Source: Crocinitomicaceae bacterium (lineage in GTDB: Bacteria; Bacteroidota; Bacteroidia; Flavobacteriales_D; Crocinitomicaceae). From it: 64,000 bases of DNA. This document shows positions 6,524 through 57,876 of this stretch, one piece after another. Location of the stretch: positions 1-64,000 of the forward strand of contig JAQXCN010000037.1 in the NCBI GenBank assembly GCA_029251865.1, read 5' to 3'. Position 1 is the first letter of the stretch; the number at the start of each line of letters is the position of its first letter. The notes beneath the pieces were generated by a model. The model made no database searches and was not told where the DNA came from. It was given only the letters and a program-made list of their open reading frames with translations. The position numbers and the translations under genes were made by a program.

Positions 6524-9418
6524 ATGAAAATTAGATTTTTAATTGGTTCATTACTAGGAGTTTCAGTAGTTGCAACTGCTGTTTTCTTTACGACCACTCA
6601 AAAAGATTCTTCAACTTACACACCAGTAGAATTAACAGCATTCGAGTCAAATTCAGGAGGTAACGATGCCGTGGCATGGTTCAAGGCACAATTCGTTAAT
6701 CAAGAAACTGGTTTGTCATACACCACAGAAGAAATACAAACAATGCGCGAAGACCTAAGAAGGCTGCCAGTTACAAAGTCAATGGCTTTTGCGGATTATG
6801 GTCCTGACAATATTGGCGGTAGAACAAGAGCAATTCAAGTGGATCGTGAATGGAATGATCTTATTTGGGCTGGTGGTGTCTCAGGTGGCTTATTTGTGTC
6901 TTACAATGGCGCGAACACGTGGACTAAAGTAACATCCTACATTGAGGCGGGAGCAAGTCCTAACATTTCTAGTATTACACAAACAAAAGATAATATTTTG
7001 TATGTTGCAACAGGTTCGAATCAAGAAGGAGGATCTGGTAACGGCGTCTGGTATTCAATCAACAAAGGTGAAGACTGGGCTGTAATCCCCGGAACATCTA
7101 ATTGTACCGAAGTAGAAAGTTCAGACAACGACGACTACGTTTGGATGGCAACCGCTCAGGGTGTAAGAAAATGGAAGTTAGATGATGAAAGTCTTACAAC
7201 GGTTTCAGCCGGTTCTGGTTCATGTGCAGCATTAAAAGTTTCAAAGGATGGAAAAATTGTTATTTCAAACCACAGCAATAAAACCTGGGTCTCAAAAGAC
7301 TTTGGTGAAACTTTTGCAGATCGATCGGGTAGTGGAGACGATGAAGTAGGTCTAGGTGGACAGAGAAGAGAATATACTATTTCTGCTGGTCTTAATGAAG
7401 CAGGATTACACTCATTGTATGCGGTATTAACGAATTCAAGTTTAGTTGGTATGTACGTTTCACATGATGATGGCGATACTTGGACGAAATTCGTAGGCGC
7501 TTCCGGCCCACCCAATGAATTCGATATATACCGTGACCAAGGGACTTACAATTCTATTGTTTCTGTTAATCCTACTGACCCAGAAGAAATTTATATTGGT
7601 GGTATCGATATATGGAGATGGAAACAAACTGTTAATAATCCACCAAGTGGAGGTTTTGAAAAAGTTAGTCAGTGGTTTGTAAATCCGACCTCTTCAATTT
7701 ACGTTCATGCCGACAACCATGAAATGAAGTGGGACGCAAATAATCGCCTTTATATTGGTAATGATGGAGGTGTTAATATTACAAACGATTTTGCTGATAA
7801 TTGGTATCCTGCGAATAGAGGATATAATGTCACTCAATTTTACGGAATTGCATTTGATAGAAATGGCGCCGTGATGGGGGGCGCTCAGGATAACGGAACA
7901 CTTTACAATGATCACAGCCTATCTACATTCCAAGAATTTGTTGAAGTTAGTGGTGGTGATGGATTTGAGTGTGAAATTTCTTATTACAACCCAAATGTTA
8001 TGTTTACCTCTGTTTATTACAATTCTATTCGAAGAACAGGAGACGGGGGTGCTACATTTAATAACTTTTCGCCAGATTTGCCGAGCAGTTATGATCCTAT
8101 TGGTCAGCAAGGAGCATTTCATCCTTTCCATACAGAATTATTTTTAGCAGAAAATTATGATGAGAATTCAGAGGATAGCGTTCTTTTCATTCCAACTAAA
8201 AATTATAATGTCGGTGACGAAATGCAAGTACCAAGTTTGTCATCTGGTGATACAATGACGATTACGGCAGCCCAAGACTATTATTTTACTGATACACTTT
8301 ATTACACGCCATCAGTGTCGAATGATTCTGTAAACTTCGGTGTGAACCCAGTTACAGGTGAATTACATGCAATGGGCGCAGATACCGTGGACTTCAATAT
8401 CTCATGGGATACGTTGACTGTTCAAGATCCGTTCCAGTCATGGTTCTTAGTTTGGGTCGGTGCGAACGGAGGTGAATTATGGGGTACTAGAAATGCATTG
8501 AGATTGTCAGTTGCGGACCCAAATTGGGTTTGTGTTGCACGAGGAATTGGTAACAACAATGGAAGTGTTGATGTAGAGTTTTCAAGAGATCTCGAAGAGT
8601 GTTATGTTTCTGCTGGTACTGGTATATGGAGAATAGATGGTTTGGGTAGCGTTTACACTAGTGATACCCTTTTCAACGAGAAAGTATCTTATTTTGCCTC
8701 CGGAGGAGATGAATTCACGCCAACATACACAGTTGCAACAAAAATTAATAATGCGGCTGCTACAGGAATTGCTGTTAATCCGAATAATGCAGATGATTTA
8801 GTGATGTTCGGAGGTAATGTGCGGAGATCATCTAATGCGACAGCAACGAGTCCAAGTTTTACGAACTTAGGAGCTGTAGGTGTTCCTTGTACAGACGGAA
8901 TTATTGATCGGGATGACCCGAATGTAATTGTAGCAGGAACACTCATGGGAATGGTTGTTTCAACAGATGGCGGTTCTTCATGGACAAACGCCTCAGAAGG
9001 TTTTGAAGGTACAGTAGTTACAGAGGTTCGTCAATCTTGGAGAACTCCAGAAGAAGGTAATGGAAGACCTGGTGAAATTTACATAGGAACATATGGTCGT
9101 GGTATTTGGGCATCTACAAATTACGCGGGAATAAATGAGCCAACAATTACTTCTTCAACTACTGAACGAGATATGACAATCTATCCAAATCCAGTTAATA
9201 ACGAATTTTCTATTTCTTTTGACATGATTAAAACAGGAGACGTTTCAATTAGAATATTTAGTTTATCAGGAGCAGAGCTCGAAGCCTTTGAATTTCAAAA
9301 CGTTGTTTCTGGGTCAACTACTCTAAATCTAGATGTTAGTGCGCTTAGGAGAGGGACCTTCCTTGTACAACTTGTAACAGCGCAACAGAAGCATGTTAAA
9401 AAAATCGTGAAATTATAA
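6524..9418 (+). CDS. Secreted BNR/sortilin-like repeat protein with T9SS sorting domain
   Basis: A 964-residue secreted or cell-surface protein. The N-terminus (about residues 1-26) is a signal peptide. The body is a beta-propeller of the VPS10/BNR (exo-alpha-sialidase-like) type, with recurring Asp-box-like strands such as 'SYNGANTWTKV', 'SINKGEDWAVI', 'SHDDGDTWTKF' and 'STDGGSSWTNA'. A beta-rich insert of unclear nature lies around residues 550-650. The last ~80 residues ('MTIYPNPVNNEFSIS...' to 'VKKIVKL') are a T9SS type A sorting domain. Catalytic glycosidase residues cannot be recognised, so a binding role is as likely as an enzymatic one. It is monocistronic, bounded by a strong terminator. 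Confidence 0.88.
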   Translation: MKIRFLIGSLLGVSVVATAVFFTTTQKDSSTYTPVELTAFESNSGGNDAVAWFKAQFVNQETGLSYTTEEIQTMREDLRRLPVTKSMAFADYGPDNIGGRTRAIQVDREWNDLIWAGGVSGGLFVSYNGANTWTKVTSYIEAGASPNISSITQTKDNILYVATGSNQEGGSGNGVWYSINKGEDWAVIPGTSNCTEVESSDNDDYVWMATAQGVRKWKLDDESLTTVSAGSGSCAALKVSKDGKIVISNHSNKTWVSKDFGETFADRSGSGDDEVGLGGQRREYTISAGLNEAGLHSLYAVLTNSSLVGMYVSHDDGDTWTKFVGASGPPNEFDIYRDQGTYNSIVSVNPTDPEEIYIGGIDIWRWKQTVNNPPSGGFEKVSQWFVNPTSSIYVHADNHEMKWDANNRLYIGNDGGVNITNDFADNWYPANRGYNVTQFYGIAFDRNGAVMGGAQDNGTLYNDHSLSTFQEFVEVSGGDGFECEISYYNPNVMFTSVYYNSIRRTGDGGATFNNFSPDLPSSYDPIGQQGAFHPFHTELFLAENYDENSEDSVLFIPTKNYNVGDEMQVPSLSSGDTMTITAAQDYYFTDTLYYTPSVSNDSVNFGVNPVTGELHAMGADTVDFNISWDTLTVQDPFQSWFLVWVGANGGELWGTRNALRLSVADPNWVCVARGIGNNNGSVDVEFSRDLEECYVSAGTGIWRIDGLGSVYTSDTLFNEKVSYFASGGDEFTPTYTVATKINNAAATGIAVNPNNADDLVMFGGNVRRSSNATATSPSFTNLGAVGVPCTDGIIDRDDPNVIVAGTLMGMVVSTDGGSSWTNASEGFEGTVVTEVRQSWRTPEEGNGRPGEIYIGTYGRGIWASTNYAGINEPTITSSTTERDMTIYPNPVNNEFSISFDMIKTGDVSIRIFSLSGAELEAFEFQNVVSGSTTLNLDVSALRRGTFLVQLVTAQQKHVKKIVKL

Positions 9419-35009: not shown

Positions 35010-38000
35010 ATGAAACACTTTTTCCTTAGCCTCGCGCTTTCTTCTATTGCATTCCTTTCCTATGCTCAAACCGCATTTTCAGATTACCAAGACGGTAAGG
35101 TGATTTTTGAGATACCTTCTTCCATGAAAATGTTTAAAACATTTCAGGGTGTTCTTGAAGGTAAAGACAACCCCTTTTTAGGTTCTAATTTTACAGAATT
35201 TGGAATCTTTGAGGTGGTTCAACTCCATCCAAATATAAAGGATGAAAAATTGTTACGCACTTATGAAATTCGATTTTCGGAATTTTATAAAGTAAATGAA
35301 CTCCTTTTAAAAGTCAAGGAAACTATTGATGTAGTGTATGTTGAGAAAAAAGAACTTCATAAGACTTTTTTAACCCCTAATGATACTTACTTTACAAATT
35401 CATTCAACAATGGTATGTGGTGTTTGTATCAAGTGAATGCGCCTCAAGCGTGGGATATCTCCACCGGAGATGCGAATATCGTTGTAGCGGTAACTGACAA
35501 CGCTATACAAGTTAATCATCCAGATTTGGTGAATAAAATTGTGCCAGGAAGAGATGTAGTCGATAATGATAATGATCCTTCTCCTTGTGGTGGTAATGAT
35601 GGATTCCATGGTTCTCATGTCTCGGGGACTGTTGGTGCAGAAACCAATAACAATCTGGGTGTTGCCTCTTTGGGTTATAACATAAGCGTAATGCCAATAA
35701 AAATTGGAAATTGTTCCACAGGTGCTCTTACAGGAGGTTACGATGGGATTATTTGGGCTGCTGATAACGGAGCTGACGCCATAAATATGTCTTGGGGTGG
35801 TGGCGGAGTATCTACCTACGGGCAAAATGTTTGTAATTATGCATGGAATGCAGGTGTTATACTTATAGCAGCGGCAGGAAATGACAATACCAACCAACAG
35901 TTTTATCCGGCAGCGTATGAAAATGTGGTAAGTGTAGCTGCGACAACAAACGGTGATGCAAAATCTAGTTTCTCACAATATGGAACATGGATTGATGTTG
36001 CTGCGCCAGGTTCTCAAATATTGAGTACAAACGAAGGGACATCCTATCAAATGTCACAAGGAACATCTATGGCTTCGCCAATGGTAGCTAGCCTTGTTGG
36101 ATTAATGTTATCTCATGCACCTTCAGCAACGCCGCAGGATATTATAGATTGTCTGCTATCTTCAGCTGATAATATTGATGCTGCAAATGGAAATTATCTA
36201 GGACAGTTGGGTTCAGGAAGAATAAATGCCGAAGAAGCCCTTATTTGTTTAAGTGCCTTTACCTATAGTCTTGACGCCGGAATAACGGGGATTTTGAATC
36301 CTGAAGGGTCGCTTTGTACTGCTACGGTCAACCCTGAGTTTGAGCTTCGTAATTATGGTTCGCAAACTCTTAATTCAGTAACCTTGACCTATCAATATGA
36401 TGGCGGTGCTTCACAAACCATTAATTGGACAGGTAGTTTATCTCAAGGTGGTACGGAAATCATACAGCTTCCTGCACAAACGTTAGGCACTGGACCACAC
36501 ACACTTACCGTATCCTGTACAAGTCCAAACGGAGGTTCTGACCAAAATGCTTCAAATAATTCACAATCTTCAGCATTTAATATTATTCCATCTGGTCAGA
36601 TTGTTACTGTTGAAATAGTTACCGATTGCTGGGGTTCTGAAACACAATGGACAATAACAGATCCTGCCTCATCTGAGGTTGTAGCCAATGGAGGTCCTTA
36701 CACTGATATTACAGGAGGTGAAGTATACCAAAGCGAGGTTTGTTTGGCGGCAGGATGCTATGAATTTACGATAACGGATGCTTATGGAGATGGTATGTAT
36801 GGAAGTCAATATGGCTCTTGTTCTGTTGATGGAACATACAATCTTTCACAGTCAAATGGAACAGTTGTAGCCTCCATCCTTGCGGCGAACTCTGACTTTG
36901 GAGATGAGGAGGTAAATCCATTTTGCGTGGTTTCTAATTTAGGTTATGATATTGGAGTGAGTGATATTAGTTATCCTAAAGGCACAATCTGTAATCCTTC
37001 TGTTGAGGCGCAAGTTGAAGTGTTCAACTACGGCGCATCTGCTCTGTCGTCTTTTGATATTTCTTATGATTTTGGTCTTGGTATCGATGTAATCAACTAT
37101 CAAGGCTCACTGGCGCCAGGTACCTCAGTGATTGTTTTACTTCCCGTGGTTAATGTTGCGGGAGGAGCAAATTCCTTAGAGGTGACAGTTTCTAATCCGG
37201 ATGGTAATACTGATGAAAATGGGATTAATGACCTGATGTCTACTTCGTTTTATGTTTATGACAGCTATCAAGGTCTACCTTTTACTGAAAACTTTGAAAG
37301 TAATAGTTTTGTAACCAATGACTGGTACTTGACAAATAGTGACAACGACATCACCTGGGAAATCGTTACTGTAGATGGAACTACCCCAGGAAATAAAGCC
37401 GCAAAAATAGATTTCTTTAATTATTCTAATGGTGGTGAACGTGACGGATTCCAAACTGCACCTTTTGATTTTGGGGCTTACACAAATATTCAAATGACTT
37501 TCGAGCATGCCTTTAGAAGGTATAATCAAGAGTCGAGAGATTCTTTGGCAATAATGATCTCTACCGACTGTGGTGAAAGTTTTTCATACCTAGGAAGTTA
37601 TGCAGAGGATGGGACAGGATCTTTTGCTACAGCATATACATCTGATGTTGAGTTTGTTCCCGCGACAGGCGATTGGTGTATGGGTGAAGTTGGTTCAGAT
37701 TGTTTAACCATTGATTTGAATGCCTATTCTGGGATGGCGGGTGTAATTATCAGATTTGAATCCGTTAATAATGGTATTGCGGGTAACAATTTGTTTATCG
37801 ACAATATTAATATTTCGGGAGACCAGACATCGAGTCCTCCGACTGCTAACTTTAATGGGGCTGCTACTTTGTGCCTCGGAGATCTTATTCAATTTGACAA
37901 TAATTCTTTAGGAGCGACATCACAAACATGGGACTTCGGAGATGGGAATTCAAGTTCTGCTATGAATCCGACACACGAATATACAAGTGCTGGTAACTTT

Positions 38001-38549
38001 ACGGTTCAACTCACAGTAACTAATAACTTTGGAACGGACACCTATTCTCAAAATGTCTCAGTAAGTGAGATACCTACAGTGGAAATCACCTCTCCTTTTA
38101 GTAACGTGTGCAATACAGCAGGTGGATTTAGTTTGAGTGCAACCCCATTGGGTGGTTCCTTCTCAGGGCCTGGGGTGAGTGGCTCTACTTTTACGCCCTC
38201 TAATGCAGGCGTTGGTTCGCATGTAGTAAGCTATTCTTACACAAATGGTAGTGGTTGTAGTGCATCTTCATCACTAACAATTGTTGTTGATAACTGTGCA
38301 AATTTAATGCAACCTGAACTTGAAGCGATTGTGCTTTATCCAAACCCTAATAAGGGTAGCTTTACCGTCGATGGCCTTCCTGAAACAGGAAGTATATTTG
38401 TATATACGGTCGAAGGAAAACTTGTTACTTATCATCGAATTGAGGGTCAGACGCAAATCATAAATCTGAGCAGGCCGATACCTGGCATATATAGAGTTCA
38501 GATTCAAACCCCTCAGGGTGATAGGATTTTTAAAATGATTATATCGTAA
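35010..38549 (+). CDS. Subtilisin-like protease (S8) with PKD and T9SS sorting domains
   Basis: A 1179-residue secreted multidomain protease. A signal peptide (1-19, 'FLSYAQ') and a prodomain (about 20-125) precede the S8 domain (about 130-410). The triad is D163, H200 ('HGSHVSG') and S353 ('GTSMASP'), with oxyanion Asn291 ('AAAGND'). The Asp motif reads 'VTDNAI' instead of the usual D-T/S-G. Two CARDB-like beta domains (about 415-515 and 645-740), a jelly-roll/MAM-like domain (about 755-940), a PKD domain ('WDFGDGNSSS', about 945-1020) and a T9SS type A sorting domain (about 1105-1179) follow. It probably digests protein at the cell surface or outside. Confidence 0.94.
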   Translation: MKHFFLSLALSSIAFLSYAQTAFSDYQDGKVIFEIPSSMKMFKTFQGVLEGKDNPFLGSNFTEFGIFEVVQLHPNIKDEKLLRTYEIRFSEFYKVNELLLKVKETIDVVYVEKKELHKTFLTPNDTYFTNSFNNGMWCLYQVNAPQAWDISTGDANIVVAVTDNAIQVNHPDLVNKIVPGRDVVDNDNDPSPCGGNDGFHGSHVSGTVGAETNNNLGVASLGYNISVMPIKIGNCSTGALTGGYDGIIWAADNGADAINMSWGGGGVSTYGQNVCNYAWNAGVILIAAAGNDNTNQQFYPAAYENVVSVAATTNGDAKSSFSQYGTWIDVAAPGSQILSTNEGTSYQMSQGTSMASPMVASLVGLMLSHAPSATPQDIIDCLLSSADNIDAANGNYLGQLGSGRINAEEALICLSAFTYSLDAGITGILNPEGSLCTATVNPEFELRNYGSQTLNSVTLTYQYDGGASQTINWTGSLSQGGTEIIQLPAQTLGTGPHTLTVSCTSPNGGSDQNASNNSQSSAFNIIPSGQIVTVEIVTDCWGSETQWTITDPASSEVVANGGPYTDITGGEVYQSEVCLAAGCYEFTITDAYGDGMYGSQYGSCSVDGTYNLSQSNGTVVASILAANSDFGDEEVNPFCVVSNLGYDIGVSDISYPKGTICNPSVEAQVEVFNYGASALSSFDISYDFGLGIDVINYQGSLAPGTSVIVLLPVVNVAGGANSLEVTVSNPDGNTDENGINDLMSTSFYVYDSYQGLPFTENFESNSFVTNDWYLTNSDNDITWEIVTVDGTTPGNKAAKIDFFNYSNGGERDGFQTAPFDFGAYTNIQMTFEHAFRRYNQESRDSLAIMISTDCGESFSYLGSYAEDGTGSFATAYTSDVEFVPATGDWCMGEVGSDCLTIDLNAYSGMAGVIIRFESVNNGIAGNNLFIDNINISGDQTSSPPTANFNGAATLCLGDLIQFDNNSLGATSQTWDFGDGNSSSAMNPTHEYTSAGNFTVQLTVTNNFGTDTYSQNVSVSEIPTVEITSPFSNVCNTAGGFSLSATPLGGSFSGPGVSGSTFTPSNAGVGSHVVSYSYTNGSGCSASSSLTIVVDNCANLMQPELEAIVLYPNPNKGSFTVDGLPETGSIFVYTVEGKLVTYHRIEGQTQIINLSRPIPGIYRVQIQTPQGDRIFKMIIS

Positions 38550-38554
38550 TTAAG

Positions 38555-38578
38555 AAAAGAGGCTCAGGCCTCTTTTTT
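38555..38578 (+). terminator. Bidirectional terminator between two T9SS genes
   Basis: AAAGAGGC (38556-38563) and GCCTCTTT (38568-38575) form an 8-bp stem with a TCAG loop and a T6 tail, 6 bp after the protease stop. It touches the stop codon of the convergent FG-GAP gene (38577-38579) and gives a T4 tail on the minus strand. Confidence 0.9.
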
Positions 38579-41003
38579 ATGGCTTATAAAGTTTTTTTCT
38601 GATACGCTTGGTTGGGCTATATAGGATACCAATATAAATACCACTTGGTCCATGAAAATTATATTTTGTGCACTCAGAATTCTTGCGATTATTTAAATCA
38701 ACGGATAAAACATTTAATCCTTTTAGGTCGAATATTTCAAGGTCTTTCAACTCTTCATCTTGTGAACAAAACTCTACGTAGTTTTCTTTTATTTGTAAAT
38801 TGGTTTCGATAGCCTCGGTCTGAAGTCCAACCGTTGAAAGGTTTTGAATTTCAATGTCAGTTTGTATACTGCATCCAATAGAATCATAGACGACAAGGGT
38901 GTAGGTGCCGTAACTCAAATCATTTACATTTGACGCAACGGTATCTTCATTAAGTAAATATGTGTACGGTGGATTGCCTCCAAACATATATATTGAAATT
39001 GAACCAAGTGCTTCGTTGGTATAAGGCGAAGACGTATACTGTACATTCAAAGGTTCAATACTTCCAATAGTAAACGCCCCTTCATAGAGACACATATTTT
39101 CTGTGTAGAAGATGTAGGTATAAGAATCTTCACTCAATCCATTTACAGCAAAACCTGACGCTCCATTTGACCATTCGACAGAGTCAATGATGGATAGATC
39201 CGCGAAATTAAGCTCTGCAGCACCTGAGCTTGGCTCATTACAAGATGTTGGAGTCGTAATTATTTGGAACAATGGTTCAGCTTCAATTTCAACGATCAAA
39301 TCATTGGAGTGATATAAAGTATCTCCTGTTATGTTGAACGCTTCAAAAGAATATACCCCCGGGGTATTTATTGTAATACTGGAGTCTTGGGAGCCTGTGC
39401 TCCAGTCGTAAGCGTTAAAGCTTCCTGCGGACAAGACAATGCTATCTCCCTGGCAGAGTAGGAGAGAGTCTGTATTTTCGATAAGCTGAAATGCTACAAT
39501 GGCGAATGACTCTTCTTGTATGATTATTGATTGATTTACTGGTATTGCATACCTTTTAGCAATAAGACCACTTGGGAATTTTACAAAAATAGAATCAATA
39601 ATTTCGGCACTTCCTGCACCGAAGATTTTATGTTGAGAATTTTGAGCACAGAGTTGCTCTCCACAGAATACAGTTTGAAGTTGTTGTATTCCCTCTACGA
39701 ATACTCTTATTTCCGCTCCAATCGCCATTCTATTTGAAGTGGTTCCTTCGGGCGTTATTTTAATATAATTATTCGCGTTGCTGCTATTTAAAAGGATATT
39801 TGGTGCAATATCTTGGTTTAAGACAACAACGTCATAGAACCCATCATTGTTAATATCTCCTTTGAGCGGACAGAACGAAACTGTGGTGACATCTCCGACA
39901 ATTGAGTCATTTATTTTGGTGAAGCTTGTTCCGCTGTTATTTTCATAAAGAATGGAGTGTGTTGGAGTACCGCTATTATTTATTGTGTTCCCTGTTGCGA
40001 TATAAAGATCCTCAAACATGTCATTATTGTAATCGACCCAAAGTGCACCCCATCCAAAGTCATTGATTGACATATCATAAGTGGGAGCTTTGTCTGTAAA
40101 AGATATTCCGTTATTATTTTCAAAAAGTTTGTAGTGAAAAGGTCCCTCACCTGATAAGGAACTTATGCCAAAGTCAGTGACGAAAATATCTTGAAATCCA
40201 TCGTTATTGTAGTCGGAAACTGATGAGGTCATTGGGTTTTGACCCTCGTTAGAAACCCCCACCGCCTCTCCTACGTCAATAAATTGAAGTTCAGATGAAC
40301 CCGTTGTAGTATTTTTGTAGAGGGCATCTACACCCACAGCCCTGTCGTTAATGACATGTAAGTCTGTTTTATCATCATTATTAAAGTCAAACCATACTCC
40401 GATAAATGAGGGTTGTGTATCGTTGTCAATATCGAGTTGCATTGAGCGCTCAATAAAGGTTCCATCTCCTTGGTTCTGGAAATACATATTGTGACCGTCC
40501 CCTGCGGGGTCAGAGTAGTCTGCAATGTATAGGTCAAGATCATTGTCTTTATCGGGATCCGCAAAGCTGAATCCAAAGGGATGATTTACCGAAGGGTATA
40601 TTCCTGAAGAAATACTCACATCTTCAAAATTAAAACTGCCCAAATTTCTGTATAAACTTACACCGAAGTCGTCATAAGAGATACAAAGATCAAGATTCCC
40701 ATCGTTATCATAGTCAACCCAACAAATTTGTCTCACATCACCTTCGCTCTTTAACATTGAAGGGATTTTCTGAAACTGCCCCTGATTGTTTTTATAAAAA
40801 ATAATCGAATCGTTGTGCATCGGATAGGTGATGTCATCCCAACCATCTTCATCAAAGTCATAAAATGACATTCCATTAGCGTTCGTGAGCTGAAAATTTT
40901 GAAAATCAGTGATTTCTTGGTCTGCAGCGATATCTGTTAGATGTTGACACATAGCCTTGGAAGTCAGTAGTAATAGTATACTAAAAATAACGTGTCTAAT
41001 CAT
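38577..41003 (-). CDS. Secreted FG-GAP/ASPIC-UnbV protein with SprB-like repeats and T9SS sorting domain
   Basis: An 808-residue secreted protein. A signal peptide (1-19) leads into a FG-GAP/VCBS beta-propeller (about 25-400) with many calcium-binding-like 'D-x-D-x-D-G' loops ('DFDEDGWDD', 'DYDNDGNLD', 'DPDKDNDLD', 'DYNNDGFQD'). Residues about 405-490 ('RMAIGAEIRVFVEG' to 'QSIIIQEE') match the ASPIC/UnbV domain. SprB-like repeats occupy about 580-720 ('GGNPPYTYLL', 'GTYTLVVYDSIGC'), and the end is a T9SS type A domain. It is probably an adhesin or scaffold. The gene starts inside the stop of the haloperoxidase-like gene (ATGA, 41000-41003), so the pair is coupled. Confidence 0.9.
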   Translation of the reverse strand: MIRHVIFSILLLLTSKAMCQHLTDIAADQEITDFQNFQLTNANGMSFYDFDEDGWDDITYPMHNDSIIFYKNNQGQFQKIPSMLKSEGDVRQICWVDYDNDGNLDLCISYDDFGVSLYRNLGSFNFEDVSISSGIYPSVNHPFGFSFADPDKDNDLDLYIADYSDPAGDGHNMYFQNQGDGTFIERSMQLDIDNDTQPSFIGVWFDFNNDDKTDLHVINDRAVGVDALYKNTTTGSSELQFIDVGEAVGVSNEGQNPMTSSVSDYNNDGFQDIFVTDFGISSLSGEGPFHYKLFENNNGISFTDKAPTYDMSINDFGWGALWVDYNNDMFEDLYIATGNTINNSGTPTHSILYENNSGTSFTKINDSIVGDVTTVSFCPLKGDINNDGFYDVVVLNQDIAPNILLNSSNANNYIKITPEGTTSNRMAIGAEIRVFVEGIQQLQTVFCGEQLCAQNSQHKIFGAGSAEIIDSIFVKFPSGLIAKRYAIPVNQSIIIQEESFAIVAFQLIENTDSLLLCQGDSIVLSAGSFNAYDWSTGSQDSSITINTPGVYSFEAFNITGDTLYHSNDLIVEIEAEPLFQIITTPTSCNEPSSGAAELNFADLSIIDSVEWSNGASGFAVNGLSEDSYTYIFYTENMCLYEGAFTIGSIEPLNVQYTSSPYTNEALGSISIYMFGGNPPYTYLLNEDTVASNVNDLSYGTYTLVVYDSIGCSIQTDIEIQNLSTVGLQTEAIETNLQIKENYVEFCSQDEELKDLEIFDLKGLNVLSVDLNNRKNSECTKYNFHGPSGIYIGILYSPTKRIRKKLYKP

Positions 41004-44000
41004 AGTATTATGAGTCTTAGCGTTTCTTTACAGATTTTTACAATGTAAACTCCCGAGTCAAGTTGCGTGGAAATAATTTGTGACGCATTATTATTTGCTT
41101 CAACTTTTATTTTCTTCAAGAGTTTTCCTGAGCTATTGTAGATCTGAACGTCTTTGTCATAATATTCCTTAGGAATATTTACCAAAGTAATCTTTTGTCC
41201 TGATGTAGTGATGTTAGGATTGAGTGAAATGGGTTTGATCTTATTGGCGGAAATATCGAGGGTTCCTTGAATCGTAATAAAGTCCTCCTCTTGGAATTCA
41301 ATTAATAAATTCCCTGCAAGGTCCGTGCCTTCTGATATTTCAATGGCATGTATTTGTTCTGTGGCTCCTGCGGAACTCAATAAAAAGGAAACAACAAGGG
41401 AATCATTATCAATCCATTCGTAGTTATTTTGATTTAATTCTGCTGGTAAAGATATTATGGGGTTATAAATGACCGAAATACTTGTGGCGACATCCATGGC
41501 CTCGTCGAATAGAAGCGATACATCTAACCAGTTGTCGATGGCATTTAAAGACGTTGTATTTGCATTGAGTCCGATGATTTTTGGGTTTTTTGTATCAAGT
41601 TCCACAAATAAAGGGTTGCTCTGATTCAATTGCGTGTTCTGCGATTTATCCCTTCCTAAAGAAATTTTCAAGTCGATACTGTCTTCTTCAATATTTTGGT
41701 CATTGATCTGAAAATAAGCTCTATAATTTATTGAATCTAAGAAGTAGCTTTCTGATAGGTCATACTGAATCGATGCGTTTAGGTTTACGATGCCTTCGTG
41801 GTAAACGAGTGGCTTAAATTCGACATCCATAACTTCGTTGAATCCAATATCAATATAATATAACTGATTTCCGAGCATTTGGTCGGAAATCATATCTGTT
41901 GTAGCGATTGTTGTTAAAACTATTGGGTTTTTTAAATCAGATTCAATTTGATTAAGGTATAAACTATCGATAATGCGATTCCCATTTCTATCATATGCAC
42001 TTACACAGGACAGGTCCAGATGTATGAAATCATTTGTATCAGGTAATGCCCAAATCTCAGCTTCAAAGGTCGTGGAATCAAGCCATAGACTCTGAAAAGG
42101 ATTCATTACCAGACTATTGTATGACTCTGAATTATTTTCAAATAAAACTTCAGGAGGTATTCCAATATCCATGGTTTCATCGAAGGTTAAGAGTGTCGTG
42201 AAAATGGAGTTATTGTTTAAGTCATCAATATTAATGAGTGTGTCTGAAATATTAATATTTGAAATACTTGGGTTTCTCGTGTCTATTTCTATCGTTTCAA
42301 TAGGTACTGAATTGGATAAGGGATTTCCATGAATATCTTTGATATTGTTGATTTCAAAATGAACTACTTCAATTTCTTCGTTAAAGTCTATGAGGTTCAA
42401 GTATGCCTTATGTGATATTGAACTCAACCAAACTGAATTATTTAAGTCTGCAATCAAGGTTTGATTTATATAATTCTCACCAAAAAAATCAATTTGTGGC
42501 ATCTCGTTCGTCATGCAAGGTTCGCTCATCAAGAGCGTTGCTGAAATACTTTCATTAATATGCGTGTCGGTTAGTATGTCTACATTGGGGTTAAGGCTAA
42601 GTATTTTTGGGCGTTTTGTATCTATAATTAAATAGTCTTGAAGAATTATTGTTTCTAAGGCAATACCTTGGTTTGATTCTATATTTTGAATTCTAATAAG
42701 GGAACTGAATTGTTCAAGAATTTCAGTGCCTACGCCCATTTCAACTTGAAAGTGAGCGGAATCTATCCAAGTAATGCTATTGACCGTGATAAGTTGACTC
42801 AGATTTGCGGGAACCAAAGTAATGATGGGTTGATTGCTGGTATTCATGTTTCTATTAAAGTAGCAGTCCAATGCAATGGTCTGACCGAAATCGAAAGAAT
42901 TAATAATGGTATCACTTATGCTTGTTGCAATGAGTGATGGGTTGGAAATGGCGAAAAGAGAATCTGCTTTTTGAAAACCATTTTGACCAATGAGTGTGCC
43001 TATATTTCTGCCTGGGATATCATCTATAGGAGGATGTATACCTCCCCATATTCTACTGAGGCTGCATTGGTCTGCTGCATCTCTATATGTAGCCCATTGA
43101 AGTCTAACTTCGGTACTCGGGCCCTCCTCAAATTGTAAAAAATCATTTTCATCGGCAACAAATTCACCAAGTCCACCTGGGAAGTATGCGGAGCCTGTTA
43201 TATATTCTAAAATACCAGCAGCAGCTCTTGAAAAGGTGGAATGTCCTGAGACAAAACCTGAAAACGGAGGCGTAACAAAGGTGGGGCGCTGGTATGGCCA
43301 CCAATTTTCACCAAGAATCCAACCAACACCAGCAACATCAACTTCAGGATCGTCTATAAAATCATGTCCTTTCCAAGTGTATAGTTTTATTTTATTCAAG
43401 TGTTCAAAATTTTGACCTACAAGAGGGTCAAGGGAATCTACAAGCGCAATATAATTTTCGAGTAAAGGAATTCCATTGGTGTTGTAATTTGGTAAAAGGG
43501 GGTCAGTACTTTGACCATTAGAGGCCATGTAGCGAATTGAGGATACTGGTCGAATATAATCATAGTATCCCTTGAGGCTCCACGCTGCTATTGCGGCATC
43601 ATGCATTGTGCCACCAAGAGTAAGATGGGCTTTTAAGTCGTATTCTAATTGGGATAACTCAGGACCTTGACCTTGCCAGCTTCTTTCAAATGTGGGTTGG
43701 TCAGAAACATAATGAAAAATTTCAAACCAATGTCCTGGAGGTGTTTCGGAATCAATACCATCAGCCCAAAATTCCGCAAGAACACGTGCGTAGTCTGCCC
43801 TTGGTACGATTTGAGGTTCATAGGGCTCACCTGTTATAGGATTTGTAGTGTGGCCTTGAGATGGGTCCCCTCCCTCTGTTAAGTTGTAAAATTGAATGTA
43901 ACTTAAAGAGTCTGTTGGATACCAAGAGTTGTTGCCTATGGAAGCAGGCGAAATATCCCAACTCACTCCGTCATTTGGGTCAAGGTGAGACTGCCAAATA

Positions 44001-44872
44001 CTGACCAACGAATGATTCCATTTATAGAATGATTCCCAATCAGAGCTGTCATCTATATTCAGGAATGAAGGCTGAACAGAATCAAAATACACCTTATACC
44101 AATCGCCATCTCTGAAATTCATATTGCTCATTGATGGCTTCAGAGCAAATGGACTTACATTTCCCCACTCAGGTGAAAGAAAGGGTAAGGTGTTATCAAC
44201 TAAATTTCCTGATTGATCAATTGTCGAATCCAGTGTCAATGTTTGCCAGCGGTTTGGGTCAATAATATCAGGATTTCCGGGCTCACTCATAATGAGGGGA
44301 GGATTAATAGAGGTGTAAAACGTATTTTCAAATTCAAGCAGTTCATTCGAGCCGTCATTTAGTCCATAATTGATTATTTCTTGTGCAATGAAGTTTCCGA
44401 GTTCAGCAGGTCCACCATTTTCATAATCTAAATTGATATTATTTACACTATAACCATTTGCAATCATAGCGTTGTACATTAAGATATATGTAGCGTTATA
44501 GTCTGGCGAGCTATGATAACGGTTTTTTATAAAGTAAAAGGAGGCATATGATATCGTTTCTTTGATTGCCTCATTGAGTTCAAGCGGAGTATTAATGCCT
44601 TCAAATGGACTGATATAATTATCAAGTGTATCGCCTATGAGATAAGTTTCATGTTCAGGTTGATATATAGCCCATGCATCATACGCAGCGATTGAATGAT
44701 GGTATAAATTTCGTGCATGAACTGTTGGTCGGGCAAAATCATTTCTAATGGCTTCAAGTAAAATCTCATTCCATTCTCGAGCTACTGATACTTGCGTGTA
44801 GAGCGAAGGGGCAGCAAACATCATGAATGTGTAAATTGCTGATAATCTGACAATTGAGAAGTTGAGTTTCAT
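41000..44872 (-). CDS. Vanadium-haloperoxidase/PAP2-like secreted protein with Ig-like repeats and T9SS sorting domain
   Basis: A 1290-residue secreted protein. After a signal peptide (about 1-27), residues about 30-640 form a haloperoxidase-like domain. The vanadate/phosphate-binding motifs appear in order: 'SLKGYYDYIRPVSS' near 432 (Lys, Arg), 'FVSGHSTFSRAAAG' near 541 (Ser-Gly-His) and 'SRIWGGIHPPIDD' near 609 (Arg, His). Residues about 640-1205 contain about five Ig-like repeats, four introduced by 'D-x-K/R-x-P' ('DTKRPKI', 'DTRNPSI', 'DLKNPIV', 'DTKNPKI'). The last ~75 residues are a T9SS type A domain. Halide oxidation is possible, but acid-phosphatase-like chemistry uses the same motifs. 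Confidence 0.87.
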   Translation of the reverse strand: MKLNFSIVRLSAIYTFMMFAAPSLYTQVSVAREWNEILLEAIRNDFARPTVHARNLYHHSIAAYDAWAIYQPEHETYLIGDTLDNYISPFEGINTPLELNEAIKETISYASFYFIKNRYHSSPDYNATYILMYNAMIANGYSVNNINLDYENGGPAELGNFIAQEIINYGLNDGSNELLEFENTFYTSINPPLIMSEPGNPDIIDPNRWQTLTLDSTIDQSGNLVDNTLPFLSPEWGNVSPFALKPSMSNMNFRDGDWYKVYFDSVQPSFLNIDDSSDWESFYKWNHSLVSIWQSHLDPNDGVSWDISPASIGNNSWYPTDSLSYIQFYNLTEGGDPSQGHTTNPITGEPYEPQIVPRADYARVLAEFWADGIDSETPPGHWFEIFHYVSDQPTFERSWQGQGPELSQLEYDLKAHLTLGGTMHDAAIAAWSLKGYYDYIRPVSSIRYMASNGQSTDPLLPNYNTNGIPLLENYIALVDSLDPLVGQNFEHLNKIKLYTWKGHDFIDDPEVDVAGVGWILGENWWPYQRPTFVTPPFSGFVSGHSTFSRAAAGILEYITGSAYFPGGLGEFVADENDFLQFEEGPSTEVRLQWATYRDAADQCSLSRIWGGIHPPIDDIPGRNIGTLIGQNGFQKADSLFAISNPSLIATSISDTIINSFDFGQTIALDCYFNRNMNTSNQPIITLVPANLSQLITVNSITWIDSAHFQVEMGVGTEILEQFSSLIRIQNIESNQGIALETIILQDYLIIDTKRPKILSLNPNVDILTDTHINESISATLLMSEPCMTNEMPQIDFFGENYINQTLIADLNNSVWLSSISHKAYLNLIDFNEEIEVVHFEINNIKDIHGNPLSNSVPIETIEIDTRNPSISNINISDTLINIDDLNNNSIFTTLLTFDETMDIGIPPEVLFENNSESYNSLVMNPFQSLWLDSTTFEAEIWALPDTNDFIHLDLSCVSAYDRNGNRIIDSLYLNQIESDLKNPIVLTTIATTDMISDQMLGNQLYYIDIGFNEVMDVEFKPLVYHEGIVNLNASIQYDLSESYFLDSINYRAYFQINDQNIEEDSIDLKISLGRDKSQNTQLNQSNPLFVELDTKNPKIIGLNANTTSLNAIDNWLDVSLLFDEAMDVATSISVIYNPIISLPAELNQNNYEWIDNDSLVVSFLLSSAGATEQIHAIEISEGTDLAGNLLIEFQEEDFITIQGTLDISANKIKPISLNPNITTSGQKITLVNIPKEYYDKDVQIYNSSGKLLKKIKVEANNNASQIISTQLDSGVYIVKICKETLRLIIL

Positions 44873-54495: not shown

Positions 54496-57400
54496 ATGGA
54501 ACAAATCCCAGCATACAAGCCTAAAAATAAAATTAGAATCGTAACAGCTGCATCTTTATTCGATGGCCATGATGCTGCCATTAATATCATGCGAAGAATT
54601 ATTCAGTCTACAGGGTGTGAAGTGATTCATTTAGGTCATGACCGCTCAGTGGAGGAGGTTGTAGATTGCGCTATCCAAGAGGATGCACAGGCAATAGCTA
54701 TGACTTCATATCAAGGAGGTCATAACGAGTACTTCAAATATATGTACGATTTATTGTGTGAAAAAGGAGCTCCGCACATTAAGATCTTTGGAGGTGGGGG
54801 AGGAACCATTCTTCCTGAGGAAATAAAAATGCTTCAAGACTACGGTATTGAACGTATTTATCATCCGGATGATGGAAGAAAAATGGGGTTGCAGGGTATG
54901 ATAAATGATTTGATAGAGCGCTGTGATTATGGTTTGGGAGAGCACCTTGAACATGATTTAAAAAAAATCAAAGGAAAGCATTCTCCATCTATCGCAAGAA
55001 CAATTTCGGCCGCAGAAAATTTCCCTGAGAAGCATGCGAAAATTCTAACTGAGATAAGAGATGTTGCGAAGCAAAGCTCTATTCCGGTGCTCGGTATAAC
55101 AGGAACTGGAGGTGCTGGTAAATCTTCACTTGTAGATGAACTCGTAAGGAGGTTTCTTGTAGATTTTGAGGATAAAGAAATTGCTGTAGTATCCGTTGAT
55201 CCTTCTAAAAGAAAAACGGGAGGCGCACTTTTAGGTGATAGAATCCGCATGAATTCAATTAAAAGTAATCGGGTGTACATGCGCTCTCTTGCTACGCGTC
55301 AGTCAAATCTTGCCCTATCCAAGCATGTTTCGGAGGCACTATCAATCTTAAAGGCTGCTCAGTATGATTTAATTATCTTGGAAACCTCTGGTATTGGACA
55401 ATCAGATACAGAGATATTGGACCATTCTGATGTTTCCCTATACGTTATGACCCCAGAGTATGGCGCGGCTACGCAGCTAGAGAAAATAGATATGCTCGAC
55501 TTTGCAGATGTAATTGCATTAAATAAATTTGACAAAAGGGGTGCTTTAGATGCCTTGCGTGATGTTCGTAAACAATATCAAAGAAATCATAATCTTTGGG
55601 ATTCAAGTGTTGACGATATGCCCGTTCATGGTACGATTGCCTCACAATTCAATGATCCTGGTATGAACTCTTTGTATAAGGTGATTATGGATCAAATTGT
55701 AGAGAAAGCTAAAGCTGAATTAAAATCGACGTTTCAAATCACGAGAGAGATGTCGGAAAAAATATATGTAATTCCTCCCGATAGAACAAGGTATCTGTCT
55801 GAGATTTCAGAGAATAATAGAGCTTATAATAAGTGGGTTGAAGACCAGGTTAAGGTGGCTGATAAGTTAAATGGATTAATTCAAACGATACAAACACTTG
55901 AATCATCTGATTATGAAGACAAAGACCGCATGGTCAAGCGCATTCGCGAGGTTCTAGAAAAAGAAAAGCTCAATTTTGATCCTAAAAATTGGGAAATCCT
56001 ACAGAATTGGGAGGCGAAGAAAAAGTCTTTCAAAGATCCCGTGTTTGAATTTAAAGTTCGTGAAAAAACATTATCCATTCAAACGCATACAAAATCACTT
56101 TCTCATTCTGACATACCAAAAGTAGCGTCTCCAAGATATAGCGGTTGGGGTGATATTCTTCGCTGGTGTTTGCAAGAGAACTATCCAGGTGAATTTCCAT
56201 TCACCGCGGGTTTATTCCCTTTTAAAAGGGAAGGTGAAGACCCAACGAGAATGTTTGCAGGTGAGGGAGGTCCAGAAAGGACGAATAAACGTTTCCACTA
56301 TGTAAGTCTCGGAATGCCTGCGAAAAGACTATCGACCGCCTTTGACTCTGTTACGCTTTATGGAAACGACCCTGATGTTCGCCCTGATATTTATGGTAAA
56401 ATTGGAAATGCGGGCGTTTCGATTTGTTGTCTTGATGATGCTAAAAAACTGTATTCTGGTTTTGATTTAAGCCATACTGCAACATCGGTTTCAATGACAA
56501 TTAATGGTCCCGCACCTATGCTGCTTGCCTTTTTTATGAATGCGGCAATCGATCAGAATTGTGAAAAGTATATAAAAGCTGAGGGCTTGACTGAGTCGGT
56601 TGAAAACAAAATAAAAGAAATTTATAAGCTGAAAGGTGTTGAAAGGCCTAGTTACAATGGTGATTTACCAGAAGGGAATGACGGTCTAGGTCTAATGCTC
56701 TTGGGTGTTACTGGTGATCAGGTTCTTTCCAGAGAAATATATAATGACATAAAAGCCAAAACGCTTACTCAAGTTAGAGGTACAGTTCAGGCAGACATTT
56801 TAAAAGAAGATCAAGCGCAAAACACTTGTATTTTTTCAACTGAATTTGCCTTGCGATTAATGGGCGATGTACAGGAGTATTTTATCAATAAGGGGGTTCG
56901 GAATTTTTATTCCGTATCTATTTCTGGTTATCATATTGCAGAGGCTGGCGCCAATCCTATTACACAGCTCGCTTTCACGCTTGCTAATGGTTTTACTTAT
57001 GTAGAATATTACTTAAGTCGAGGAATGAATATTAATGATTTCGGCCCAAATCTTTCTTTCTTTTTCTCAAATGGTATAGATCCAGAATACGCCGTTATTG
57101 GTCGTGTGGCGAGAAAAATATGGTCTAAAGCAATGGCTAAAAAGTATGGTGCAAATCCACGTGCGCAAATGCTTAAATATCACATTCAAACTTCAGGGAG
57201 ATCATTACATGCTCAGGAAATTGATTTTAATGACATAAGAACAACCCTTCAGGCATTGTATGCCATATATGACAATTGTAATTCATTGCACACAAATGCA
57301 TATGATGAGGCGATTACTACGCCGACAGAGGAATCTGTTCGCAGAGCAATGGCAATTCAACTCATTATTAATCGTGAGCTTGGTTTGGCAAAAAATGAGA

Positions 57401-57876
57401 ATCCTTTACAAGGAAGCTTTATCATTGAGGATTTGACCGATTTGGTCGAAGAGGCAGTACTCTCTGAATTTGACAGAATAACGGAACGCGGTGGTGTTTT
57501 AGGAGCCATGGAGACAATGTATCAAAGGTCTAAAATTCAAGAGGAATCTCTTTATTACGAAACTTTGAAACATACTGGAGAATTTCCAATAATTGGCGTG
57601 AATACATTTTTAAGTTCTAAAGGATCTCCAACGGTCCTACCAAAAGAGGTGATTAGAGCCACTGAGGAGGAAAAGCAGTTTCAGATAAATATGCTTAAGA
57701 ACCTTCATGCTGCGAAAGAGGAAGGTACAAAAAAGGGGATTAAAACGATTCAAGACGCAGCGGTGAACAATCAAAATATTTTTGAAGAGCTTATGGAAAC
57801 ATGTAAACATGCTTCACTTGGTCAGGTTACAAATGCCTTGTTTGAAGTTGGTGGTCAGTACCGAAGAAATATGTAA
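54496..57876 (+). CDS. icmF: Fused acyl-CoA mutase IcmF (isobutyryl-/methylmalonyl-CoA mutase with built-in G-protein chaperone)
   Basis: An 1126-residue adenosylcobalamin-dependent mutase. Residues about 10-140 are the B12-binding domain ('[15 protein letters not shown]', '[12 protein letters not shown]', '[10 protein letters not shown]'). Residues about 190-400 are the MeaB/MeaI-like GTPase ('[17 protein letters not shown]' P-loop, '[22 protein letters not shown]', '[13 protein letters not shown]'). Residues about 530-1126 are the mutase TIM barrel. The order B12 domain, GTPase, mutase identifies IcmF rather than ordinary MCM. Substrate preference among butyryl, isovaleryl and methylmalonyl groups cannot be set by eye. 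The Smr gene follows 5 bp downstream. Confidence 0.96.

Follow-up and report, generated by a model that had tools for sequence, protein, structure and literature searches.

Two overlapping genes on the reverse strand of a 64,000-nucleotide stretch from a Crocinitomicaceae bacterium (assembly GCA_029251865.1, contig JAQXCN010000037.1, positions 1 to 64,000; hereafter the window) probably encode a two-part oxidative enzyme of the cell surface, in which a vanadate-dependent haloperoxidase (VHPO) would make hypohalous species and a calcium-type propeller would place it on a substrate. The enzyme gene (41000..44872) encodes 1290 amino acids (aa) and the FG-GAP/ASPIC partner gene downstream of it (38577..41003) encodes 808 aa; all features of the pair given below lie on the same strand. 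Both open reading frames (ORFs) exist exactly as first read from the sequence, the stop of the enzyme gene and the start of the partner gene sharing the 4 bp ATGA (41000..41003). The original prediction of a haloperoxidase coupled to an ASPIC protein is, overall, supported by our sequence and model comparisons, from which we infer vanadate occupancy, halide oxidation, physical contact between the two proteins, the ligand of the propeller, its adhesin or scaffold role and the biological purpose of the pair.

An AlphaFold2 model of residues 27-655 of the enzyme, built from an alignment with 82 relatives, was predicted with high confidence (pLDDT 91.4, pTM 0.91) and has the two-bundle fold of VHPOs. 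The catalytic domain occupies residues ~29-641 (~615 aa; 42950..44788) and follows a signal peptide read from the sequence (residues 1-26; 44795..44872). When the model was compared with the PDB, matches 1 to 29 were all VHPO chains (best E value 2e-18), led by NapH1 (3w35/3w36), XhnO11 (9l8x) and NapH3 (8cxl) with E values of 1e-16 to 1e-18 and template modelling (TM) scores of 0.71-0.76 by target length. The Curvularia inaequalis chloroperoxidase (1vnc, 1idu) and the Zobellia galactanivorans iodoperoxidase (4cit/4usz; TM 0.75 by target length) followed at E values of ~1e-12 to 1e-13, and acid phosphatases first appeared at 0.34. A compact PAP2 domain was not the best structural match of the model, and the PDB chains found by the sequence profile of the enzyme were VHPO/NapH chains only. 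This ranking rules out a PAP2 phosphatase as the primary reading of the fold, and we retain it below as a rival for the chemistry.

The three vanadate- or phosphate-site motifs that had been noticed in the sequence were found at K434-x6-R441-P442 (43547..43573), S542-G543-H544 (43241..43249) and R607-x5-H613 (43034..43054), which provide all seven residues of a putative vanadate site (K, R, S, G, H, R, H). Across the alignment, K434, R441, S542, G543, H544 and H613 do not vary in any of the 83 rows; R607 is present in all 82 that are readable at its position. Together with the confident fold, this conservation supports the predicted enzyme class at the level of sequence and model. The K-x6-R and R-x5-H spacings are those of known enzymes, among them the Curvularia chloroperoxidase (CiVCPO), which has the same seven vanadate ligands. 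W431 and F537 are likewise invariant and by their spacing correspond to CiVCPO W350 and F397, as found in chloro- and iodoperoxidases.

NapH-type chains match the enzyme locally in sequence around the K-x6-RP and SR-x5-H motifs, and the Zobellia iodoperoxidase resembles it at TPPF..[YF].SGHS and SR..GGIH. The enzyme also differs from these proteins: identity is 13-16% to NapH1, XhnO11 and NapH3, to which it adds five Ig-like repeats, a tail for the type IX secretion system (T9SS) and the partner, and ~15% over the fold to the Zobellia enzyme, whose solved chain of ~415-458 aa lacks repeats and FG-GAP motifs. The fungal Curvularia enzyme has neither repeats, T9SS tail nor partner, and its stretch between RP and SGH counts about 42 residues against 100 in the window enzyme. 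The two proteins had also been described as giant, and known marine haloperoxidases as much shorter than the enzyme. The comparison of length stands for those with solved structures, but long homologues (700-2180 aa), all of them uncharacterised, are frequent; at least 580 relatives of the enzyme were found in one genome scan. Taken alone, the enzyme represents a long-tailed form of a VHPO group that is uncharacterised and widespread in Bacteroidota, so that 'giant', like any description of the enzyme as unusual, should be toned down.

In a recent survey of halogenases (PMC12871659), selective enzymes were associated with a catalytic Lys and Ser. The window enzyme reads SGH where the NapH-like XhnO11 reads SGS, and given the link drawn by that survey a non-selective enzyme, which would release hypohalite, is the better guess from the sequence.

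If the pair is a unit, the partner should accompany the enzyme in other genomes, and this was found to be the case. Among the 61 genomes of the genus this VHPO is present in 7, and the partner in all 7 of these (Fisher p = 8e-8). The enzyme and the junction between its tail and the partner lie on separate contigs in genome G032, and the ORFs of the pair are broken in G017 and G078. Two further genomes of the genus have only the partner, cut at a contig end; in one partner-only genome the repeat tail of the enzyme stands beside the partner with the same 4-bp overlap and runs off the contig. In G012 (L158 4351-7364), a sister genome within the genus, a distant 462-aa gene of VHPO/PAP2 type, belonging to a different VHPO subfamily, likewise shares a 4-bp overlap with an FG-GAP/ASPIC gene. 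At two loci (L032 8394-12263; L153 584-6555) the VHPO is split into several ORFs by frameshift, pseudogene formation or assembly error, and in L153 the partner is split as well.

More widely, we collected 100 homologous domains, of which 88 had readable context; the scan keeps the best 80 matches, and the set is thus biased to the query's own relatives. An FG-GAP propeller is fused to the N-terminus of the VHPO in 32 of these 88 homologues (27 with ~620 aa or more, 5 with ~460 aa), stands just downstream on the same strand in 13, just upstream in 4 and two genes upstream in 1. A further row scored as downstream, L039_2, is really in tandem with a fused VHPO; the 4-bp overlap recurs in 8 of 12 downstream pairs. 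By comparison, 980 control ORFs from these flanks, each at a distance of two or more genes, included 9 that were partner-like. One fusion of 2179 aa has the order FG-GAP-ASPIC...FG-GAP-VHPO. Conservation of the ASPIC partner beside homologues, on which the pairing had been made to depend, thus extends from the genus to several other families and to single-chain proteins. When 296 Bacteroidota genomes were sampled evenly, 19 VHPO loci were found, 7 of them with FG-GAP/ASPIC within two genes. Such proteins made up 11 of the 74 ORFs close to a VHPO and 3 of the 160 more distant ones (p = 2.7e-4); several of these loci come from the same genera, and the independent cases are therefore fewer.

Some homologues are arranged differently. 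In L036 (7654-15348), L037 (6141-13472) and L080 (5991-13177) a tandem pair of long-tailed VHPOs, one with five Ig-like repeats and the other with three, replaces the ASPIC partner, and in the first two loci the tandem adjoins an OmpA-family gene. In L084 (8657-12145) the N-terminal fusion to the VHPO is no propeller; its sequence resembles leucine-rich repeats with an Ig-like part. VHPO genes on contigs labelled Rhodobiaceae, Verrucomicrobia and Gemmatimonadetes (L053, L073, L097) nest among those of Bacteroidota, through mis-binning or transfer.

We then asked of the trees whether the pairing is one event or many. In the partner tree, downstream partners stand beside ASPIC arrays in tandem from the same order, fused propellers of Flavobacteriaceae join the single genes that lie upstream in Splendidivirga and Phaeodactylibacter, and the fusions L043_9 and L081_8 fall in yet other places. 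Forcing downstream and fused partners into one clade lowered the log-likelihood by 149 and was rejected by the approximately unbiased (AU) test (p = 1e-4), a test run on a quick tree with a constrained group chosen after the tree had been seen. We thereby also reject descent of every pair from one ancient pairing, and the enzyme tree requires at least 6 changes between the paired and unpaired states. Because the partners come from different ASPIC lineages, the link was made repeatedly, as judged from these trees, and such repetition argues more strongly for a joint function than would one old neighbourhood passed on by descent.

These results bear on whether the two genes adjoin merely as co-expressed T9SS cargo, forming no physical or functional unit. 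T9SS cargo and FG-GAP proteins are both numerous in Bacteroidota, tandem ASPIC arrays occur in related genomes, and over a third of the homologues lack the partner. Against this stand the 32 single-chain fusions, the several independent partner lineages, the near-perfect co-occurrence in the genus and the recurrence of the 4-bp overlap in another VHPO subfamily; moreover, the partner's UnbV_ASPIC domain is the sole one found in the source genome, which has a single copy of the enzyme. We consider mere neighbourhood very unlikely, and adjacency by chance or through T9SS gene islands is rejected by the controls, the co-occurrence, the fusions and the independent recruitment. Fusion and repeated recruitment of a propeller suggest that enzyme and propeller work as a unit.

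The partner had been described as an FG-GAP/ASPIC-UnbV/SprB-repeat protein. Its FG-GAP repeats and its UnbV_ASPIC domain (39525..39725; PF07593, 37-41 bits) exceed the Pfam cut-offs and make it a CRTAC1-like protein, while the SprB-like repeat (38946..39005) falls short at 20.2 bits against a cut-off of 28. Seven calcium-type motifs of DxDxDG type lie at residues 49, 97, 149, 206, 264, 324 and 383 (together residues 49-392; 39828..40859), one for each presumed blade of what we read as a seven-bladed propeller. The same repeats, domain and motifs are shared by CRTAC1-like proteins, to which the partner adds its SprB-like and T9SS-like C-terminus and its genetic tie to a VHPO. In an AlphaFold2 model of a fused relative (L089, residues 48-1247), the N-terminal propeller half shows seven mostly four-stranded blades together with two beta domains, that of ASPIC and an additional Ig-like one. 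Tandem arrays of 4-5 FG-GAP/ASPIC proteins (~840-910 aa) were seen at three loci that have no recorded VHPO match (L133, L134 and L135).

Both proteins had been called T9SS cargo, and the evidence is firmer for the enzyme. Its sorting domain (41030..41221) scores 33.3 bits against the TIGR04183 cut-off of 23, and the source genome encodes SprA along with some 84 further tails of this kind, so that by sequence the enzyme is predicted to be type A cargo. The tail of the partner (38583..38759) scores 15.1 bits in the window copy and more than 23 in 4 of 7 orthologous partners; its N-terminus, read from the sequence, also resembles a signal peptide. Between catalytic and sorting domains, the estimate of about five Ig-like repeats proved right in number: a profile made from the repeats detects five copies and no more, each of ~110 aa, at residues 648-757 (42602..42931), 761-870 (42263..42592), 873-985 (41918..42256), 987-1099 (41576..41914) and 1100-1207 (41252..41575). 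Their Ig assignment is indirect, through Pfam Big_12 (bacterial Ig-like), which was recognised in two of the 17 homologous tails. Five copies is also the number in almost every other long-tailed homologue scanned, while L046_3 has six and a shorter paralogue group (~1070 aa) has three. Identity is 42-44% in the repeat tail against 79% in the catalytic domain, and the tail's ratio of nonsynonymous to synonymous polymorphism (pN/pS) is 0.46-0.49, against 0.18-0.19 for the catalytic domain and 0.22 for the propeller. Such rapid divergence is as expected of a stalk.

The most likely course of events is as follows. The 1290-aa protein would be exported through the T9SS, its N-terminal domain being a histidine-type VHPO (H544) that presumably holds vanadate, and the five Ig-like repeats would act as a fast-evolving stalk keeping the enzyme off the membrane. 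There it may use hydrogen peroxide to oxidise halide to hypohalous species, which would be released or transferred at the cell surface. The co-translated FG-GAP/ASPIC propeller, likely T9SS cargo too, would be the dedicated partner of the enzyme, most probably binding it to, or positioning it on, a substrate such as a glycan or other surface polymer in a calcium-dependent manner.

Several observations weigh against this proposal. The enzyme reaches Pfam VCPO_2nd exactly at the cut-off (27 of 27 bits), with DUF6851 and PAP2 below theirs, although some of its relatives pass the Pfam VHPO/PAP2 cut-offs. NapH3 combines the VHPO fold with non-halogenating chemistry. In the model of the fused relative, made from 25 alignment rows, the enzyme half was left unresolved (pLDDT 70, pTM 0.51), so that contact between propeller and enzyme stays presumptive. 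No hydrogen peroxide source or halide gene was recognised among the neighbouring genes examined. Finally, 37 of the 88 homologues have no FG-GAP neighbour, and the propeller is thus not essential to the VHPO fold family.

The first two points would fit a protein of VHPO fold that is no haloperoxidase: a vanadate-free phosphatase, or another hydrolase or isomerase, handling phosphate or an organic substrate in the same pocket and partnered by the propeller at the surface. The motif set K-x6-RP, SGH and SR-x5-H (with HxxxD) also defines PAP2 phosphatases, one distant paired relative matches PAP2 only, and glycoside hydrolases or SusD lie near some paired loci. The fold ranking runs the other way, as do the two helical bundles of ~615 aa, where a PAP2 unit has ~200 aa, and the retention of W431, F537 and H544 as in chloro- and iodoperoxidases. 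We therefore regard this alternative as unlikely, and a haloperoxidase as the preferred reading of the enzyme.

What a surface haloperoxidase would be for is a separate question. Distantly related, paired short VHPOs at L187 (3121-12847), L191 (3196-12848), L199 (5771-16737) and L201 (3258-12897) stand with one or two FG-GAP/ASPIC proteins (~700-1100 aa), and SusD lies near that of L187, GH97 near that of L199 and GH65 near that of L201, hinting at polymer handling. We tentatively propose that Bacteroidota VHPOs were repeatedly given an FG-GAP/ASPIC propeller, through pairing of genes or through fusion, as a dedicated substrate-targeting subunit, and that the resulting oxidative system of the cell surface would attack polymers with hypohalous species. 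FG-GAP proteins are commonly read as calcium-dependent adhesins, and the propeller could be only an anchor or adhesin for an enzyme that detoxifies hydrogen peroxide from algal bursts, or that halogenates or degrades quorum-sensing lactones. Homoserine lactones are broken down by a VHPO from a macroalga (PMC8407465), and a Zobellia iodoperoxidase is induced on Ascophyllum (PMC9296495). The fusion of propeller and enzyme and the SusD, GH97 and GH65 neighbours agree no less well with substrate handling; we hold detoxification or signal interference, with the propeller as a mere anchor, to be rather unlikely, on evidence that fits both readings.

In the window the pair is flanked by S8 peptidase and MarC/DUF2927 genes, and these flanks lack the adjoining SusC/SusD and carbohydrate enzymes of a polysaccharide utilisation locus. 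The S8 subtilase (35010-38549), with PKD and a T9SS tail, is convergent with the pair, and an ORF of equal size (1179-1181 aa) takes its place in G017, G019, G026 and G081. Elsewhere in the window are a T9SS cargo protein of 964 aa with a Sortilin-Vps10 match of 37.5 bits (6524-9418) and an IcmF-like protein that fuses B12-binding, MeaB and methylmalonyl-CoA mutase domains (54496-57876).

Work on bacterial haloperoxidases has mostly dealt with stand-alone biosynthetic enzymes of Streptomyces and with individual iodoperoxidases of bacteria that live with seaweeds. The new point here is the recurrent partnership of VHPO and propeller, apparently undescribed until now: we found no publication on it in the open literature, which is weak evidence, as most subscription journals lay outside the search. 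The natural fusions of ~1340 aa in cultured Winogradskyella, Flavivirga and Marinoscillum offer a tractable handle on bacterial ASPIC proteins, and substrate targeting, if true, would give these widespread but functionally unassigned proteins one concrete role. That a large group of secreted Bacteroidota VHPOs is repeatedly tied or fused to a calcium-type propeller suggests a surface machine common among marine bacteria, one that may carry weight in halogen cycling, algal defence and polymer breakdown.

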